64,000 bases of DNA from positions 310,001 to 374,000 of the forward strand of contig NZ_QURL01000002.1 of the NCBI RefSeq assembly GCF_003403015.1, in the 5' to 3' direction. Within the stretch, counting starts at the first letter, position 1, and every line of letters begins with the position of its first letter. This DNA comes from Fulvimarina endophytica. Lineage in GTDB: Bacteria; Pseudomonadota; Alphaproteobacteria; Rhizobiales; Rhizobiaceae. The position numbers were made by a program, and so were the translations under genes. Shown here in pieces: positions 38,914 to 61,252 of the stretch. A model generated the notes under the pieces. That model was not told the DNA's origin. It searched no databases and saw nothing but the letters and a program-made list of their open reading frames with translations.

Positions 38914-40530
38914 CTATCGCGTGACGATCTCGGGTCCCATCAGCGCCGTCGGTATCCAGGTGGAGAGCACTGGTACATAGGTGACGATGATCAGGAAGAT
39001 GAAGAGAACCCCGACGAAGGGCATCGCCGCCTTCACCACCTTCACGAGACTCATGCCGGTGATGCCCGAGGTCACGAAGAGGTTGAGACCGATCGGCGGC
39101 GTGATCATGCCGATCTCCATGTTCACCACCATGATGATGCCGAGGTGGATGGGGTCGATGCCGAGTTCCATCGCGATCGGGAACACCACGGGTGCGACGA
39201 TCAGGAGAAGACCGGACGGCTCCATGAACTGCCCGCCGATGAGCAGCAGGACGTTTACGGCGATGAGGAAGGTCCACCAGTTGAAGCCGTAGTCCAGCAT
39301 CACCGAGGTGATCGCGTCGGGAATGCGCTCGGAGGTGAGGACATGGGCGAAGAGCAGCGCGTTGACGATGATGAACATCAGCATCACCGTCGTCTTCGAG
39401 GCATCGACCATGACCTTGCGGGTCTCGTCGTGAACGAAGGCGCCGAGGAGGTTGCGTCCCATGAGCTTGAGATTGCGGCCCCAGATCGGCAGGCCCGCGA
39501 TGAGCGTGCCCGGAACCGCGGTGATGCCGCCGCCGGCCCGCCAGGCGGAATAGGCGACGAGGATGAAAGCGCCGATGAGGAGGCCGATGACGGCCCGGCT
39601 CTCTGCGAAGCCCGTTCCGAACGAGCGTTCGAAGAAGAAGGCCAGCATGAACCAGACGAAGAGGAAGGAGAGCGCGTAGGCATAGGCCTTGAAGCCGATG
39701 ATGGCGCGGCTCTTGTCGGTCGGAAGCGTCCAGGGATTGCCCTTCATCGGACCCATGTCGCGGTAGATGAAGAGGGCGACGAGGCAGGAATAGACCGCCG
39801 CGACCGCCGCGGCCTCGGTCGGCGTGAAGGCGCCGCCATAGATGCCGCCGAGGATGATGACGATGAGCAGCAGGCCGAAGGCCGCCTGCTTGCCGCCGGC
39901 GATCACCTCGCCGAAGCCCTTCCACTCCTCGGCCGGCAGGTTCTTGCGCCGGGCCTGGATGTAGATCGCGCCCATCAGCATCAGGCCCGCGAGGAGACCC
40001 GGGATGATGCCGGCAAGGAACATGCGGCCGACCGAGACGTTCGTCGCGGCCGCATAGACGACCATGACGATCGACGGAGGGATCAGAATGCCGAGCGTGC
40101 CGGCATTGGCGATGATGCCCGCGGCGAACTCCTTGGTGTAGCCCACCTGGCGCATGCCCGCGATGGCGATGGTGCCGATCGCGACCACGGTTGCGGGCGA
40201 GGAGCCCGAAAGGGCCGCGAACATCATGCAGGCGAGCACGCTCGCCATTGCCAGACCGCCGCGAAGGTGGCCGATCGAGGCGATGGCGAAGTGAATGATT
40301 CGCTTGGCGACGCCGCCCGTCGACATGAAGGCGGAGGCGAGGATGAAGAACGGAATCGCAAGAAGCGTGTAGTTCTGGGAGGCGGTGAAGAGCTGCAGGG
40401 CGACCGAACTCATGGAGTCGGAGGAGAGCAGCGCGATGACGAGCACCGAGGCGAGACCGAGGGAGATCGCGACCGGAACGCCGAGAAAGAGAAGCCCGAT
40501 GACCAGGCAGAAGAGAACCGTGGTTTCCAT
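38914..40530 (-). CDS. dctM: TRAP transporter large permease DctM
   Basis: 538 residues with about 12-14 hydrophobic segments, the ion-coupled translocating subunit of a TRAP transporter. The N-terminal LLFLGVPVAISLGLASV and the internal GTLGILIPPSIVMVVYA and MEIGMITPPIGLNLFV repeats are typical DctM motifs of its two inverted halves. It is longer than the usual ~430 residues because of a ~100-residue insertion between the halves, as in some dicarboxylate TRAP systems. It starts five bases after dctQ ends, and its terminator closes the operon. Confidence 0.95.
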   Translation of the reverse strand: METTVLFCLVIGLLFLGVPVAISLGLASVLVIALLSSDSMSSVALQLFTASQNYTLLAIPFFILASAFMSTGGVAKRIIHFAIASIGHLRGGLAMASVLACMMFAALSGSSPATVVAIGTIAIAGMRQVGYTKEFAAGIIANAGTLGILIPPSIVMVVYAAATNVSVGRMFLAGIIPGLLAGLMLMGAIYIQARRKNLPAEEWKGFGEVIAGGKQAAFGLLLIVIILGGIYGGAFTPTEAAAVAAVYSCLVALFIYRDMGPMKGNPWTLPTDKSRAIIGFKAYAYALSFLFVWFMLAFFFERSFGTGFAESRAVIGLLIGAFILVAYSAWRAGGGITAVPGTLIAGLPIWGRNLKLMGRNLLGAFVHDETRKVMVDASKTTVMLMFIIVNALLFAHVLTSERIPDAITSVMLDYGFNWWTFLIAVNVLLLIGGQFMEPSGLLLIVAPVVFPIAMELGIDPIHLGIIMVVNMEIGMITPPIGLNLFVTSGITGMSLVKVVKAAMPFVGVLFIFLIIVTYVPVLSTWIPTALMGPEIVTR

Positions 40531-40535
40531 GGGGC

Positions 40536-41231
40536 TTAGTCCTTGACGGCGTTCTTGTTCTCGGCGACGAGGTCTTCCGCCTCGTGGCCGGCGACGATCA
40601 GCTCACGCTTGCCGGATGCGATGTCGGCAATGCCCTGAAGCGAACGGAATGCGAGAAGGGCGAGGCCGATCGGCAGCATGATGTAGGCCACCCAGCGCTG
40701 CACGCGCTCCTGCAGGCCGAAGCTGTTGATCGCCCAGTCGGGATATCTCAGATCGTCGAGACCGGTGCCGCGGTCGAACATGAAGGCCCAGTAGCCGATT
40801 GCGCCGCTCTGGCGCCAATTGCCGCCCGTGCCGTTACCGACGATGGCGAGCACGCCGCCGTGGAGCAGGATGATCGCATAGGCGAGGGTGCAGAACGCGC
40901 CGAAGATCGCGGCGGCCTTGAACAGGGGCTTCGGGAACAGCCGGATCAGCGCGTCGACGCCGAGATGGATGCCGGTCTTCACGCCATAGCCCATGCCGAA
41001 CAGGATCAGCCAGGCGAACAGGATGCGCGTGGCTTCGAGCGAACCGGTCCAGCCGGAGTTGAAGCCGTAGCGTGCGACGACCTGGGAGAAGGAGATGAGG
41101 GTGATGGCGGCGAGAAGGATGGCGATGATGTTCTCTTCCAGGCGCGCGATTCCGTCGGGCCACCGACGTTCCGCAAGGAAGAGAATCACGACGAGCAGGA
41201 TCAAGCCGGCGATGGGCCAGATGAGTTCCAC
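40536..41231 (-). CDS. dctQ: TRAP transporter small permease DctQ
   Basis: 231 residues with four hydrophobic segments, the small membrane subunit that complexes with DctM. VARYGFNSGWTGSLEATRILFAWL (seen in two adjoining pieces near residues 50-72) and GYGVKTGIHLGVDALI are the conserved DctQ blocks with the Glu and Arg residues typical of the family. The length, greater than the usual ~170, matches the ~227-residue DctQ of the Rhodobacter C4-dicarboxylate system. Five bases separate it from dctM; a large hairpin lies between it and dctP. Confidence 0.92.
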   Translation of the reverse strand: MELIWPIAGLILLVVILFLAERRWPDGIARLEENIIAILLAAITLISFSQVVARYGFNSGWTGSLEATRILFAWLILFGMGYGVKTGIHLGVDALIRLFPKPLFKAAAIFGAFCTLAYAIILLHGGVLAIVGNGTGGNWRQSGAIGYWAFMFDRGTGLDDLRYPDWAINSFGLQERVQRWVAYIMLPIGLALLAFRSLQGIADIASGKRELIVAGHEAEDLVAENKNAVKD

Positions 41232-41468: not shown

Positions 41469-42548
41469 TCAGTTCGCGGTGGTCGAGGCGGAGCCCGATG
41501 CGCCGGTGGCTGCGGCCGCGTCGGTGGACTGGGTGTCGGCCGTGCCGTTCATGACGACGGCGGCATCGATCACGTCGGCACCGATATCGTTGCGGAACTG
41601 ATCCCAGACCGGCTTCATGACCGTGACCCAGGCTTCACGCTGCTCGGGCGTAAGCTTGCGGATCTCGGAGCCGGCATTGGCGATCTGCGTGCGGCATTCG
41701 TCTTCCTGCTGGGCGACCTTGTTGTTGGCGTCCGCCAGGGTCTCGTTGACGATCGTCAGGAACTGCTCGCGCACATCGTCGTCGAGGCTGTCGAGGAAGT
41801 CCTGGCTGGTGATTAGCGCGTAGGCGAGCAGCTGGTGGTTGGTCTCGGTGATGCCGTCCTGCACCTCGAAGAACTTCTGGGTGTAGGTGTTGCACCAGCT
41901 GTTCTCCTGGCCGTCCACGACGCCCTGCTGGAGCGCACCGTAGACTTCCTTGAAGGCGAGCTTCTGGGCCGAGGCCTTCAGGGCCTCGATCATCGCGACC
42001 GCGACGTCGGAGGTCTGGACGCGGAACTTCAGGCCCGCGGCGTCCTCGGGCATCACCAGCGGCTTGTTGGCCGAGAACTGCTTCAGGCCCGAGCTGATAT
42101 AGCCGAGACCCTCATAGCCCTCGTCCTGGAGAACCGAGAGGAGATCCTTGGCGTTGTCGGAGGCGAGATAGTGGTTCGCATCCGCAAGGGTCGGGAAGAG
42201 GAAGGGCAGATCGTAGAGGCGCAGCTTGCTCGTATAGGCCTCGAACTTCGAGAGCGAGGGGGCGGCGAGCTGGACGTCGCCGAGGAGCAGGGACTCCATC
42301 ACCTTGTCGTCGTCGTAGAGCGTGGAATTCGGGAAGACCTGCATGCAGAGCTTGCCGTCCATCTCCTCGTTCACGCGGTCCGCCAGAAGCTGGGCGGCCT
42401 CGCCTTTCGGATGGCCCTGCGCCGCGACGACGTGGCTGAACTTGACGATGGTCTCGCCGCTTCCGCACGGATCGTCCTGAGCCTGCGCAGCGCCCGCCGC
42501 AAGGGTGAGAGCGAGGCCGGAGATCGTGCCGAGCAAGAGATTCTTCAT
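41469..42548 (-). CDS. dctP: TRAP transporter substrate-binding protein DctP
   Basis: 359 residues. A signal peptide (to AQA near residue 23) precedes the periplasmic binding fold; VKFSHVVAAQGHPKGEAAQ is the N-terminal motif, and the conserved Arg that clamps the substrate carboxylate lies in LKFRVQTSD near residue 165, with the GVVDGQENSWCNTYTQKF block at ~225. With DctBD next door, C4-dicarboxylates such as succinate, malate or fumarate are the probable ligands. The ~30-residue Ala/Thr/Ser-rich C-terminal tail is unusual. GGAGG nine bases before ATG 42548. Confidence 0.94.
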   Translation of the reverse strand: MKNLLLGTISGLALTLAAGAAQAQDDPCGSGETIVKFSHVVAAQGHPKGEAAQLLADRVNEEMDGKLCMQVFPNSTLYDDDKVMESLLLGDVQLAAPSLSKFEAYTSKLRLYDLPFLFPTLADANHYLASDNAKDLLSVLQDEGYEGLGYISSGLKQFSANKPLVMPEDAAGLKFRVQTSDVAVAMIEALKASAQKLAFKEVYGALQQGVVDGQENSWCNTYTQKFFEVQDGITETNHQLLAYALITSQDFLDSLDDDVREQFLTIVNETLADANNKVAQQEDECRTQIANAGSEIRKLTPEQREAWVTVMKPVWDQFRNDIGADVIDAAVVMNGTADTQSTDAAAATGASGSASTTAN

Positions 42549-42740
42549 ATGATTATCCTCCCGATGAGCGGTGACGAGCCGCCCGAAACGTCTGGTTGTC
42601 CGCACCGCGAACCGTAGATCGGCCGCAGAGCATGAGATCGGCATGTGGGGGAGGTCGGTGCCGGGCGCCTCGGACCCGCTTTGTCCAAGCGGATCAGTTC
42701 GCCTCGCAATGCCTCCCGTCACTGCGACAGAAGACAACTG

Positions 42741-42755
42741 GCAAGGCGCATGCCA
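42741..42755 (-). promoter_or_regulatory. Sigma-54 promoter of dctPQM
   Basis: TGGCATGCGCCTTGC on the minus strand: the -24 GG and -12 GC are exactly ten bases apart, and 9 of the 10 key consensus positions (TGGCACG-N4-TTGC) match. Predicted start near 42729, leaving a leader of ~180 bases before dctP. Confidence 0.8.
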
Positions 42756-42882
42756 AACGCGCCGGGAGGGGTGAGGAACCGCTTAAGGTTTTGGAAAGAT
42801 TGGGTAACGTCCCGCCGGCGACGAGATCGCGAAGGCACGGAGTAATCGAGCGGGAAGCTGGCTACTCGTCCTGGCGATGCCG

Positions 42883-42902
42883 ATGTGTCGGACGCTACAC
42901 AT
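42883..42902. promoter_or_regulatory. Candidate DctD upstream activator site
   Basis: ATGTGT and ACACAT form a perfect dyad with an eight-base spacer, about 130 bases upstream of the -24 element. The distance suits a sigma-54 enhancer; the sequence is not proven as a DctD site. Confidence 0.45.
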
Positions 42903-42934
42903 GCCGAGACGAACGGAGCTTCCAACGACGTCGG

Positions 42935-44323
42935 TCAAGCCTCGCCGCGTTCGTCCTCGGTCTCGCCGGTCTCGATCCCGAGACGCTTGATCTTGTCGTA
43001 GAGACCCTTCCGGGAGATCTGAAGAGCCTCGTATGTAGGCTTCAAAGCGCCCTGGTGCCGGGAAAGTTCCGTCTCGATCACGAATTTTTCGTAGAGCGTC
43101 ATCCGATCGGCGAGCGAGGCGTTCAGGGGCGCGGCCGGGGCATGGGAGGGATCGCTCGCAGATCCGTTCTCGAAGCCCGACCAGAGCCCCAGCACGAAAC
43201 GATCGGCATAGTTGCGCAGCTCGCGCACATTGCCGGGCCAAGGGGCGGCGACGAGATGGCGTTCGAATTCGTGGTCGAAGGGCGGGATCTCGCGCCGGAA
43301 CCTCGCGCGGGCCTCGCGGGCGAGATGGAAGAAGAGGATCGGAATATCCTCGGGCCGCTCGCGAAGGGGAGGGATCGTCAGGGTGACGACGTTCAGCCGG
43401 TAATAGAGATCGGAGCGGAACTGGCCGGCCTCGCCGGCCCGGGCAAGATCGGTCTTCGTCGCTGCCACGAAGCGCACGTCGAGGGGAATCGGCTTGTTCG
43501 AACCGAGCCGCTCAATCACCCGTGTCTCGATCGCCCGCAGAAGCTTGGCCTGGAGATCGAGGGGCATGGACTCGATCTCGTCGAGGAAGACGGTTCCGCC
43601 ATCGGCATGTTCGAGCTTGCCGATCCGCTGGCGCTGGGCGCCGGTGAAGGCGCCGGCCTCGTGGCCGAAGAGCTCCGACTCGATGATATCTGCGGGGAGC
43701 GCGGCGCAATTGATGGCGACGAAATTCTTCTTCGAGCGCTGCCCGAAATCGTGCAGCGCGCGCGCGACGACCTCCTTGCCGGCGCCCGTTTCCCCACGGA
43801 TCAGGACGTCCACATCGGTATCGGCCAGCGCCCTGATCTGCTGGCGCAGGCGCTCGATGGCGGGGGTGCGGCCGACGAGACGAGCCGAGAGTTCGCCTCC
43901 GCTGTCGTCGAGCCGCGAGCGCAGCAACCGGTTTTCCAGAACGAGGCGGCGCTTCTCCAGCGCCCGCTCGACCACGGTCTGGAGGCGGGAGATCGGAAAC
44001 GGCTTCTCGATGAAGTCGTAGGCGCCGATGCGCATGGCATCGACCGCCATCTGCACGTCGCCATGGCCGGTGATGAGAATGACGGGCATCGTCGGGTCGA
44101 TCGAGAGCGCGCGCTTCAGAACCTCCAGCCCGTCGATCCCCTTCATGCGGATATCGCTGATCACGACCGCATGGGCGTCCTGGCTGAGCTGGGAGAGAAG
44201 GCCGGCCGCGTCCTCGTGCGACCGGATCGGCAGCCCCTCCAGCTCGAGGCCCTGGGCGAGGGCATCGCGAAGATCTTCGTCGTCGTCGACGAGATGGACG
44301 ATGGACGGGCCGAATTCGGGCAT
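42935..44323 (-). CDS. dctD: Sigma-54-dependent response regulator DctD
   Basis: 462 residues: receiver domain (VDDDE, phospho-Asp in VISDIRM near residue 54, KPF), AAA+ domain with Walker A GETGAGKE and the GAFTGA loop that contacts sigma-54, Walker B FLDEI, and a C-terminal Fis-type HTH (YEALQISRKGLYDKIKRLG). In rhizobia and pseudomonads DctD, phosphorylated by DctB, switches on C4-dicarboxylate uptake. ATG 44323 is 19 bases after the dctB stop codon, so they form an operon, and the dctPQM sigma-54 promoter lies directly downstream. Confidence 0.95.
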   Translation of the reverse strand: MPEFGPSIVHLVDDDEDLRDALAQGLELEGLPIRSHEDAAGLLSQLSQDAHAVVISDIRMKGIDGLEVLKRALSIDPTMPVILITGHGDVQMAVDAMRIGAYDFIEKPFPISRLQTVVERALEKRRLVLENRLLRSRLDDSGGELSARLVGRTPAIERLRQQIRALADTDVDVLIRGETGAGKEVVARALHDFGQRSKKNFVAINCAALPADIIESELFGHEAGAFTGAQRQRIGKLEHADGGTVFLDEIESMPLDLQAKLLRAIETRVIERLGSNKPIPLDVRFVAATKTDLARAGEAGQFRSDLYYRLNVVTLTIPPLRERPEDIPILFFHLAREARARFRREIPPFDHEFERHLVAAPWPGNVRELRNYADRFVLGLWSGFENGSASDPSHAPAAPLNASLADRMTLYEKFVIETELSRHQGALKPTYEALQISRKGLYDKIKRLGIETGETEDERGEA

Positions 44324-44342
44324 GGACGAGACCTCGGGGGGA

Positions 44343-46112
44343 CTATTCTGCGGCGATCGACTGGCTATCGGCATTCCGAAGCGTGATTGCAAACACCGTT
44401 CCCTCCGGGCCGGTTCGCAGAAGGCGGATGCCGCCGCCGAAATCGGCCAGGATGTTGGAGACGATCGAGAGGCCGATGCCGATGCCTTCGCCGCTCGATT
44501 TGGTCGTGACGAACGGCTCGAAGATCTGCCGGGCTATGTCTTCGGGAATGCCGGGCCCGTCGTCGGCGACCTCGATCGTCAGGTCGTCACCTCCCGCGCT
44601 CTGTCCGATCGCGATCTCGATCCGGCCGCCGGAAAGGTGGCTCATCGCGTCGGCGGCGTTGTTGATGAGGTTGATGAACACCTGGCTCAGCCGGACCTTT
44701 CCGCCCAGAACCGTATGCTCGCGCAAGGCCGGATCGATGACGAGGTCGATCTCCGCCTTGCGAAGACGTGGGCGCACGAGGATCATCGCCTCGTCGAGAA
44801 CCGGGCCAAGGCCGATGATCTCCGTCGTCGTTCTGGGCTTTCGGGCAAAGGCCAGCAGCGTCTTCGACAATTCCGCCATCCGCTCCGTCATCGCCGCGAT
44901 GCGCGACAGATTGTGCTCGGCCTTGCGGGGCTCCTCGCGCGCGATCAGCCGGGCCGCGTTGTCGGCATAGGTCCGGATGGCCGCGATCGGCTGGTTGAAC
45001 TCGTGCCCGAGGGCGGCGGCCATCTGCCCGAGCCCGGCGAGCCGTGCGGTATGCACCAGATCGGACTGGGCCTGCCGCAGCTTCTCCTCGGCGATCCGGC
45101 GTTCCTCGACCTCGGCCGCAAGGCTGCCGTTCACCTCGCTCAGCGCCTTGGTGCGGGTGCGCACGCGCCGCTCGAGGGACAGCGCGATCGCCCTGTCCCG
45201 GCGCTCGCGCAGGATGACCTGCTCGCTGCGGCGGATGAGGAGAGCCGTGGCGACGGCCAGGAGGAGGACGAAGAGAAGTGCGGACACCGTCGCCCAGGTC
45301 ACGGCGAGCGCGATGGGGCGCGTATCGGCGAGAACGTGGACTTCCCATTCCAGAAGCGGAAAGCTGCGCGACAATTCGATGAACGTCTCGCCCGTCCCGT
45401 TGACGAGATCGCCCGAAAGGGCCGCGGGCGCGAGAGAGGCGATCTCGCCGGTCGGCCGGTTGGTGAGGAGGATCTCGCCGTTCCGATCGGTCACGAAGAT
45501 CGGCTTCTTCGACAGGGCCCAGGTGGATTCGACGCTCTCGAAGCCGACGAGGATCGCGATATAGCCGAGCACCTTGCCCTGGCGGCGAACCTGCGAGGCG
45601 AAGAGATAGGCCTTCTCGCCATCTGCGAGCTTCAGGCTCTGGCGACCGAGCCGGCCCTGGCGAGCGGCCGCGAGAGCCGCGTCGAGCGCACTCGCGGAGG
45701 GCTGGAAACGGCCCCGGGCACTGGCGACGAGTTCACCCGACGGTGAAAAGAGCGCGGCGTCGAGCGCGCCCGACATCGCCGTGACCTGACCGACCGCCCG
45801 CGCGGCGTCGCGGGCATTGACCGCGATGAGCGGCGAGCCCGGCGGGGCGAGGATCGAGGCGATCTCCCGCGTTCCCGAGAGGAGGGGGGTCAGGAGGCGA
45901 TATTTGTCGAGGATGCCTTCGAGAACTGCGGCCTGCACGTTCAGCGTCTCGGCGGCGTCCCTCGTGACGGAGAGACGAACCGAGTGTCCGGTCAGGCGTC
46001 CCGCGAGCGTCGCCGCAAGAACCGCGACGGCGAGAAGAAGGATCGCCGCGGCGCCGCGAATGATCCAGAACCTGCGCTCGACGGCGTGGCGACCGGTCCG
46101 CCGCATGGCCAT
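44343..46112 (-). CDS. dctB: C4-dicarboxylate sensor histidine kinase DctB
   Basis: 589 residues. Two membrane segments (about residues 15-40 and 285-310) enclose a ~240-residue periplasmic double-PAS-like sensor that binds C4-dicarboxylates in known DctB proteins. A coiled coil follows, with GLGQMAAALGHEFNQPIAAIRTYADNA (quoted in pieces; phospho-His near residue 370), then the N box LINNAADAM, G1 DDGPGIPED and G2 GIGIGLSIV. The GHEFNQP form is the DctB/HisKA hallmark. ATG 46112 is preferred; ATG 46106 is possible. Confidence 0.94.
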   Translation of the reverse strand: MAMRRTGRHAVERRFWIIRGAAAILLLAVAVLAATLAGRLTGHSVRLSVTRDAAETLNVQAAVLEGILDKYRLLTPLLSGTREIASILAPPGSPLIAVNARDAARAVGQVTAMSGALDAALFSPSGELVASARGRFQPSASALDAALAAARQGRLGRQSLKLADGEKAYLFASQVRRQGKVLGYIAILVGFESVESTWALSKKPIFVTDRNGEILLTNRPTGEIASLAPAALSGDLVNGTGETFIELSRSFPLLEWEVHVLADTRPIALAVTWATVSALLFVLLLAVATALLIRRSEQVILRERRDRAIALSLERRVRTRTKALSEVNGSLAAEVEERRIAEEKLRQAQSDLVHTARLAGLGQMAAALGHEFNQPIAAIRTYADNAARLIAREEPRKAEHNLSRIAAMTERMAELSKTLLAFARKPRTTTEIIGLGPVLDEAMILVRPRLRKAEIDLVIDPALREHTVLGGKVRLSQVFINLINNAADAMSHLSGGRIEIAIGQSAGGDDLTIEVADDGPGIPEDIARQIFEPFVTTKSSGEGIGIGLSIVSNILADFGGGIRLLRTGPEGTVFAITLRNADSQSIAAE

Positions 46113-46207
46113 CGTCGATCTACCCGGCAAAGCTCGTCTCCCAGCGATACGCGTCCGGCGGGGTGTCCGCCGGGCGCGTTCGACGCTCGAAGACTATCCC
46201 AGCTTCG

Positions 46208-61108: not shown

Positions 61109-61252
61109 CGGCGGGTCCTTCGCGGCGCTCGGAACGGTTCGAAAACGGGCCATCCGTCGCGGGGGCTCTGGCGCTCTTCGATGGGCAAACCATATGCCAC
61201 GTCATGCGTTCGTCCACTGCGAACGCGCGAATTTGCGGCATGGAGAGCTGGA

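Follow-up and report, generated by a model that had tools for sequence, protein, structure and literature searches.

A predicted DctB-DctD circuit acting on a C4-dicarboxylate TRAP operon through a conserved sigma-54 promoter with a structured leader in Fulvimarina endophytica

A 64,000-nucleotide stretch of the Fulvimarina endophytica genome (contig NZ_QURL01000002.1 of assembly GCF_003403015.1, positions 310,001 to 374,000; hereafter the window) encodes a DctB-DctD two-component system that very probably (probability of about 0.9, judged from sequence comparisons) activates the adjacent dctPQM TRAP transporter operon directly through a sigma-54 promoter. In the proposed mechanism, DctB would sense periplasmic C4-dicarboxylates and phosphorylate DctD, as expected from their families, and DctD would bind an 18-bp inverted repeat at 42884-42901, perhaps together with a weak second copy 33 bp nearer the promoter. 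DctD would then loop to the sigma-54 RNA polymerase at 42741-42755, where its GAFTGA loop would drive open-complex formation as in other members of the family. Transcription is predicted to start near 42729, which would place a structured leader of about 181 nt before dctP. The likely role of the switch is to turn on a pump that takes up succinate-type acids. The first-pass annotation of this DNA had proposed the same circuit, and its reading is supported by the presence of rpoN, the lack of a detectable dctA, a DctD-type operator with a pattern found once in the genome, and conservation of the promoter in 52 of 53 and in 30 of 30 loci. What goes beyond that annotation is the predicted DctD-type operator and the apparent conservation and structure of the long leader.

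The five genes dctB, dctD, dctP, dctQ, and dctM are consecutive in this order of transcription on the minus strand (Table 1), so the sensor, activator, promoter, and transporter are contiguous, as had been claimed. Residues 62 to 237 of DctB match the DctB sensor entry 2zbb (E value of 1.8e-7), and the GAFTGA motif earlier ascribed to DctD was found. The C terminus of DctD matches no helix-turn-helix model at an E value of 0.001, yet it aligns in this region with relatives, one of which (L126) matches PF02954. The best solved relative of DctP is 4o94 (E value of 1.3e-85), and its best named relatives among the matches listed belong to Jiella and Notoacmeibacter. A Ser/Thr/Ala-rich tail of about 25 residues lies at the C terminus of DctP (window 41469-41550); it is missing from the nine relatives aligned (L003 is cut short there) and is covered by the alignment in a few other matches, e.g., L059 and L068.

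Table 1. Predicted features of the dctBD-dctPQM locus (window coordinates)
Feature	Position	Strand	Basis or remarks
dctB, sensor histidine kinase	44343..46130	-	PF00512, PF02518
dctD, NtrC-type response regulator	42935..44392	-	PF00072 (receiver), PF00158 (AAA+); GAFTGA at residue 247
Main DctD operator (predicted), TGTGTAGCGTCCGACACA	42884..42901	-	18-bp inverted repeat, N4 spacer; 128 bp upstream of promoter
Possible degenerate second operator, CGAGTAGCCAGCTTCCCG	42851..42868	-	10/14, weak alone; 33 bp closer to promoter
Sigma-54 -24/-12 promoter, TGGCATG-N4-TTGC	42741..42755	-	Exact match and conservation; predicted start near 42729
5' leader hairpin, TCGCAGTG-acGGGAGG-CATTGCGA	42704..42727	-	Starts at about +3; GGGAGG (42712-42717) in loop
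Hairpin before ribosome-binding site, GGGCGG-ctcgtca-CCGCTC	42566..42584	-	Long-leader conservation
dctP Shine-Dalgarno, GGGAGGA	42556..42562	-	Sequence
dctP, C4-dicarboxylate TRAP solute-binding protein	41469..42548	-	TIGR00787, 228.7 bits (cutoff, 175.05); PF03480
dctQ, TRAP small permease	40536..41231	-	PF04290
dctM, TRAP large permease	38914..40530	-	TIGR00786, PF06808

Read on the minus strand from 42755 to 42741, the promoter TGGCATGCGCCTTGC has no mismatches to TGGCAYRNNNNTTGC and keeps the exact GG-N10-GC spacing, in agreement with the first-pass annotation, and it lies 3' of the dctD stop codon (42935) and 5' of the dctP ATG (42548). The predicted start was set 12 nt past the -12 GC, and the leader length obtained from it by arithmetic bears out the earlier description of a long leader of about 180 bases. 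By itself, the motif is weak evidence and is near chance in this genome. Exact promoter motifs number 12 genome-wide versus 7 for the reversed control pattern, counts that are unusable as evidence, and the window contains 48 matches with up to two mismatches versus 37.25 expected, a number reached in 5 of 100 shuffles. A second exact motif in the window (61185-61199, minus strand) lies 5' of a thioesterase-like open reading frame (ORF) identified by eye and is possibly a chance match, and an exact site in the genome (G000:C11:500800-500814, L033) lies 5' of a type II glutamine synthetase gene, also identified by eye, which is a plausible NtrC target.

Conservation of the promoter was assessed in 88 loci with a DctD homologue, comprising 58 of 80 named loci, 10 additional loci, and 20 larger regions. 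The named loci were the best 80 of at least 573 relatives, of which 21 had no DctD match and one (L085) was dropped for a weak, misplaced match. A locus was counted as TRAP if dctD precedes dctP on the same strand; the two need not be adjacent, and gaps reach 2.3 kb. The GAFTGA loops were taken from an alignment. Among TRAP loci whose DctD keeps the threonine that contacts sigma-54 (GxFTxA), the site was found with at most one mismatch in 52 of 53 (49 exact and 3 with one mismatch), and the sole exception, L110, is a 3-kb contig from a metagenome bin. The corresponding count was 2 of 15 for TRAP loci without the threonine (replaced, loop deleted, or, in L098, unreadable), neither site being exact and both lying 304 to 314 nt from the predicted start codon. 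The site was absent from all 11 loci of the GAFPGA/GAFAGA class and present in all 9 divergent GxFTxA loci, 8 of which adjoin dctA (7 exact). No dctA match was found in the genome of the ninth (L141). In addition, a close DctD was present in 61 of 394 genomes of the family, and the 54 not yet used were taken as a further set. Five of these had no forward dctP in the stretch fetched (1.9 to 2.1 kb), and the other 49 all have the site. Removal of 19 near-duplicates left 30 distinct loci, and all 30 carry the site, 22 as exact matches and 8 with a single mismatch, a count that leaves loop state aside.

These data bear on the possibility that the site is a chance GC-rich motif and that dctP transcripts arise at a sigma-70 promoter or through continued transcription from dctBD. 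The genome motif counts would accommodate such an explanation, which is nevertheless extremely improbable given the 52 of 53 conserved sites versus 0 of 88 antisense-strand regions and 0 of 88 regions searched with the reversed pattern, together with the 30 further loci. The promoter is therefore judged real because of its position and conservation, not because of the motif count, although read-through from dctBD may add basal dctP expression. On a DctD tree built by a quick method, with the loop columns and L098 omitted, the window's DctD clusters with those of a same-genus genome and of Jiella sp. LLJ827; taken with the DctP relatives, this probably places the source in or near Aurantimonadaceae. 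On this tree, the threonine state changes only twice versus five changes of promoter state. An independent-pairs test of loop state against promoter could reach no significance because it had only these two independent changes.

The predicted operator emerged from the k-mers ATGGGT, ACACAT, and CTACCC, which are enriched between dctD and the promoter and compose an 18-bp inverted repeat with the half-site TG[TG]G[TC]NG and a 4-bp spacer. The window's site (42901-42884) matches the half-site model at 14 of 14 positions, and the 33-bp distance to the second copy falls within the 31- to 34-bp tandem spacing of relatives, in which paired sites are mostly 32 to 33 bp apart. With a score of at least 12/14 required, an operator was detected in 42 of the 52 TRAP loci that have the promoter (shuffles, 2.15), and the other 10 had none. 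The same search was positive for 10 of the 15 TRAP loci lacking the threonine (shuffles, 1.24), for 9 of the 11 GAFPGA/GAFAGA-class loci (shuffles, 1.26), and for 8 of the 9 divergent loci (shuffles, 0.33). These counts are descriptive because the loci counted also supplied the half-site. The pattern TGKGTMGNNNNCKACMCA was composed once the site had been seen; it occurs a single time in the genome, at the window's operator, and its reversed control does not occur.

The operator also bears on whether another enhancer-binding protein, such as NtrC, is the main activator at a genuine sigma-54 site while DctD acts elsewhere. Three loci (L061, L083, and L086) have dctP with an exact sigma-54 promoter and no dctD detected within 5 kb upstream, which would fit an activator of this type and suggests that the regulator pair moved and the promoter stayed. 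In addition, the DctD AAA+ domain alone can activate many sigma-54 promoters, according to the available portion of one report (PMC3844500), which means that the promoter itself does not confer specificity. Against this, the region upstream of the promoter contains a DctD-type operator with a pattern not found at any other place in the genome, and the presence of the promoter tracks the DctD loop state. Control mainly by another enhancer-binding protein is thus very unlikely, and direct activation by DctD is the preferred reading.

The letters of the operator vary among relatives with the transporter that is regulated, and the DNA-binding helix varies too. The helix is mostly PRKTFYDK, with operators near TGTGCGG, in dctA-linked and loop-deleted DctDs (a few of the rows were read by eye), and TRAP-linked DctDs have SRKGLYDK or SRKALYEK and operators of the form TG[TG]GT[AC]G; we take the PRKTFYDK/SRKGLYDK residues to be the recognition helix of DctD. 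A Rhizobium meliloti DctD site is quoted as TGTGCGgnnntCCGCACA in the accessible text of PMC11077940, which places two sites upstream of dctA. The window's operator shares with it the 18-bp geometry and the outer TGTG...CACA, and 9 of its 13 capital letters match by hand count; the inner letters differ, as in TRAP-linked relatives. So far as that text describes it, the rhizobial DctBD-dctA system has the 18-bp inverted repeat and the -24/-12 promoter in common with the window (PMC11077940). Its tandem copies have a possible counterpart in the window's weak second site (10/14), and 8 of the 9 divergent loci carry a tandem pair of DctD-type sites. The window differs in that its target is a TRAP operon, its genes are co-directional, its half-site is TG[TG]GT[AC]G rather than TGTGCGG, and its helix is SRKGLYDK rather than PRKTFYDK.

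The genome (4.37 Mb, 99.1% complete) encodes rpoN (PF04552; E value of 3.1e-63). No DctA-family gene (PF00375) was found in it by a search that was positive in 7 of 14 control genomes, and because no dctA was found, the DctBD-dctPQM circuit probably takes the place of the classical DctBD-dctA one. Of 19 DctP-family genes in the genome, 15 were examined in the 700 nt that precede the DctP domain, and a sigma-54 site with at most one mismatch was present only at the window's dctP (0 of 14 others). A second DctD-like regulator (G000:C11:321221-322519; 49% identical, with the loop GAFTDA) is followed by an exact sigma-54 site (C11:320868-320882, L032) and then by a gene for a TAXI-type TRAP receptor identified by eye. 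This locus repeats the architecture of the window, and the best window-type operator there scores only 11/14.

Some relatives appear to have left sigma-54. Eight DctDs of the Rhodobacterales type (L111, L114, L116, L117, and L119 to L122, with L121 titled only Pseudomonadota) lack the GAFTGA loop. Seven of their genomes were searched for rpoN (completeness not given); it was not found in 6, among them that of Roseovarius tolerans, and Roseovarius pacificus has two copies. All eight loop-deleted loci carry a tandem operator-like pair near TGTGCGG-N4-CCGCACA upstream of dctP. None has a sigma-54 promoter that matches exactly, and a site with one mismatch is present in L122; the DctDs of these loci may act at a sigma-70 promoter. 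A parallel is offered by the loop-less NtrC of Rhodobacterales and Caulobacter, which acts at sigma-70 promoters, as stated in the part of PMC10274813 that was available; the parallel is with the loop-deleted relatives, whereas the window's DctD keeps GAFTGA. In the GAFPGA/GAFAGA class, 4 of 11 loci were checked for a link to a tripartite tricarboxylate transporter, which was indicated by Pfam in L126 and by ORF reading in L125, L135, and L139, and the GAFPGA DctBD-like pairs beside these transporter genes mostly keep the operators and have no sigma-54 promoter. Loss of sigma-54 does not account for the GAFPGA change, because rpoN is present in 3 of 3 genomes searched (L125, L126, and L135). 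About 110 enhancer-binding-protein homologues with a deviant GAFTGA, in which the change from Thr to Pro is preferred, are mentioned in the accessible part of PMC3162934. No title or abstract opening among the literature matches listed deals with a DctD that has left sigma-54. Together, loci having GAFTGA with the promoter and those having GAFPGA or a deleted loop without the promoter, the latter loci mostly keeping their operators, form a natural series in which one can ask how an enhancer-binding protein leaves sigma-54.

The leaders were compared by length, counted from the -24 T to the ATG, and were divided into long (at least 139 nt) and short (below 139 nt) by a cut chosen after the lengths had been seen; L092 and L122 were omitted, and L061, L083, and L086, which have a promoter and no linked dctD, were retained. 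A GGGAGG-like element near the start occurs in 46 of 49 long leaders versus 7.7 ± 2.6 in shuffles, in 1 of 36 short leaders versus 1.5, and in 20 of 22 further long leaders. A hairpin encloses the GGGAGG or ends no more than 8 nt before it in 44 of 46 leaders (14.4 ± 2.7 in shuffles). Upstream of promoter-less dctP genes, the element is near chance (4 of 30 versus 2.4 ± 1.5). Upstream of the other DctP genes of this genome, it is somewhat raised (5 of 14 versus 1.9 ± 1.2; elements 45 to 120 nt upstream of the start in L145, L146, L148, L155, and L156), so the GGGAGG is not exclusive to the dctP leader and was rejected as a mark of sigma-54 dctP leaders alone. A leader peptide was also rejected, since no conserved start codon follows the GGGAGG in a list read by eye.

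The second hairpin was defined as having at least 5 bp and ending no more than 7 nt before the Shine-Dalgarno sequence. It was found in 25 of 27 long leaders versus 4.4 ± 2.0 in shuffles, and it was at chance in short leaders (4 of 28 versus 4.1), promoter-less dctP genes (5 of 30 versus 4.8), and the other DctP genes of this genome (2 of 14 versus 2.2). Because the pattern had been seen before this first test, it was retested on the further loci, in which 14 of 22 long leaders (3.5 ± 1.6 in shuffles, with a maximum of 9 in 200 shuffles) and 2 of 8 short leaders (1.4) have the hairpin. At a threshold of 4 bp, it occurs in 46 of 49 long leaders with 30 distinct stems, and each of the six innermost pairs shows changes on both sides (covariation). 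The pairing is complete by construction and falls to 0.58 when the 3' arms are redealt. The covarying hairpin sits 0 to 7 nt, mostly 4 nt, before the dctP ribosome-binding site. All of these shuffle comparisons overstate independence because the leaders are related by descent.

RNAalifold found no structure on a MAFFT alignment of 27 long leaders; the sequences looked misaligned, and position-anchored hairpin tests were therefore used instead. Whole-leader folding energy is only mildly low in both long (mean z score of -1.26) and short (-1.16) leaders and is thus no evidence of a special fold. The values for the window's leader (-0.65) and its pre-Shine-Dalgarno stretch (-0.89) are not individually significant. 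The covariance models of Rfam 15 gave no match at an E value of 1 or below in 42300-43000 and none at the gathering score in 10 loci with related leaders. CsrA is a reader of GGA loops, and the leader was ruled out as a CsrA target because a search of this genome found no CsrA.

The two hairpins probably form a post-transcriptional layer that would act on mRNA stability or on ribosome or small-RNA access. We tentatively suggest, at somewhat less than even odds, that the long leader of sigma-54-driven dctPQM operons is an undescribed cis-regulatory RNA that gates expression after DctD-activated transcription. It would comprise the 5'-proximal hairpin, which presents or adjoins a Shine-Dalgarno-like GGGAGG, and the covarying hairpin before the ribosome-binding site, and the gate could work through ribosome standby, through protection of the 5' end, or through an AbcR-like small RNA that docks at both GGGAGG copies. 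A literature search found no description of this leader, which is weak evidence of absence given its thin coverage of subscription papers.

A more specific proposal is that an AbcR/ar15-like small RNA carrying two CCUCCCA motifs would dock at both the GGGAGG and the dctP Shine-Dalgarno sequence and provide off-control of dctPQM; this is possible but rather doubtful. The genome contains an ar15/AbcR-like locus (G000:C21:561373-561483, L217) that has two CCTCCCA motifs followed in the description by a hairpin resembling a terminator; its ar15 match, at 29.9 bits, is below the 40-bit cutoff. No match to the ar35 small RNA was found in the genome. AbcR motif M1 is given as CUCCCA in the accessible text of PMC5461406, and CCUCCCA-type motifs pair with any Shine-Dalgarno sequence. 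The raised frequency of GGGAGG at other DctP genes of the genome and the failure to find CsrA, the alternative reader, favor such docking. It was also considered that the GGGAGG pairs with a downstream CCTCCC as an anti-anti-Shine-Dalgarno switch. This pairing appears in several minimum-energy folds, including that of the window, but only 4 of 46 leaders have a complementarity above that of shuffles at a P value of <0.05 (mean score of 9.63 versus 8.48), which leaves the switch unsupported and improbable.

A circuit of this kind is already known. In Pseudomonas aeruginosa, DctD with RpoN drives dctA and dctPQM, according to the available portion of PMC7962211, and the comparison with Pseudomonas made by the first-pass annotation holds to that extent: a DctBD-type system, sigma-54, and a TRAP dctPQM target are common to both, while in the window's genome no dctA was found and the sensor, regulator, and transporter genes are contiguous. 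In Rhizobium phaseoli, DctPQM with DctB/DctD is activated by maize exudate, so the same pairing exists in a rhizobium, where the accessible part of PMC8581550 presents it from expression only. The window differs from the known cases in its contiguous genes, the lack of a detectable dctA, the changed operator letters, and the conserved structured leader. The locus offers a complete testable circuit for dicarboxylate uptake, with sensor, activator, operator, promoter, and transporter, in a genome in which dctA was not found, and its conserved leader is a concrete target for asking why transporter mRNAs here carry long structured 5' ends.
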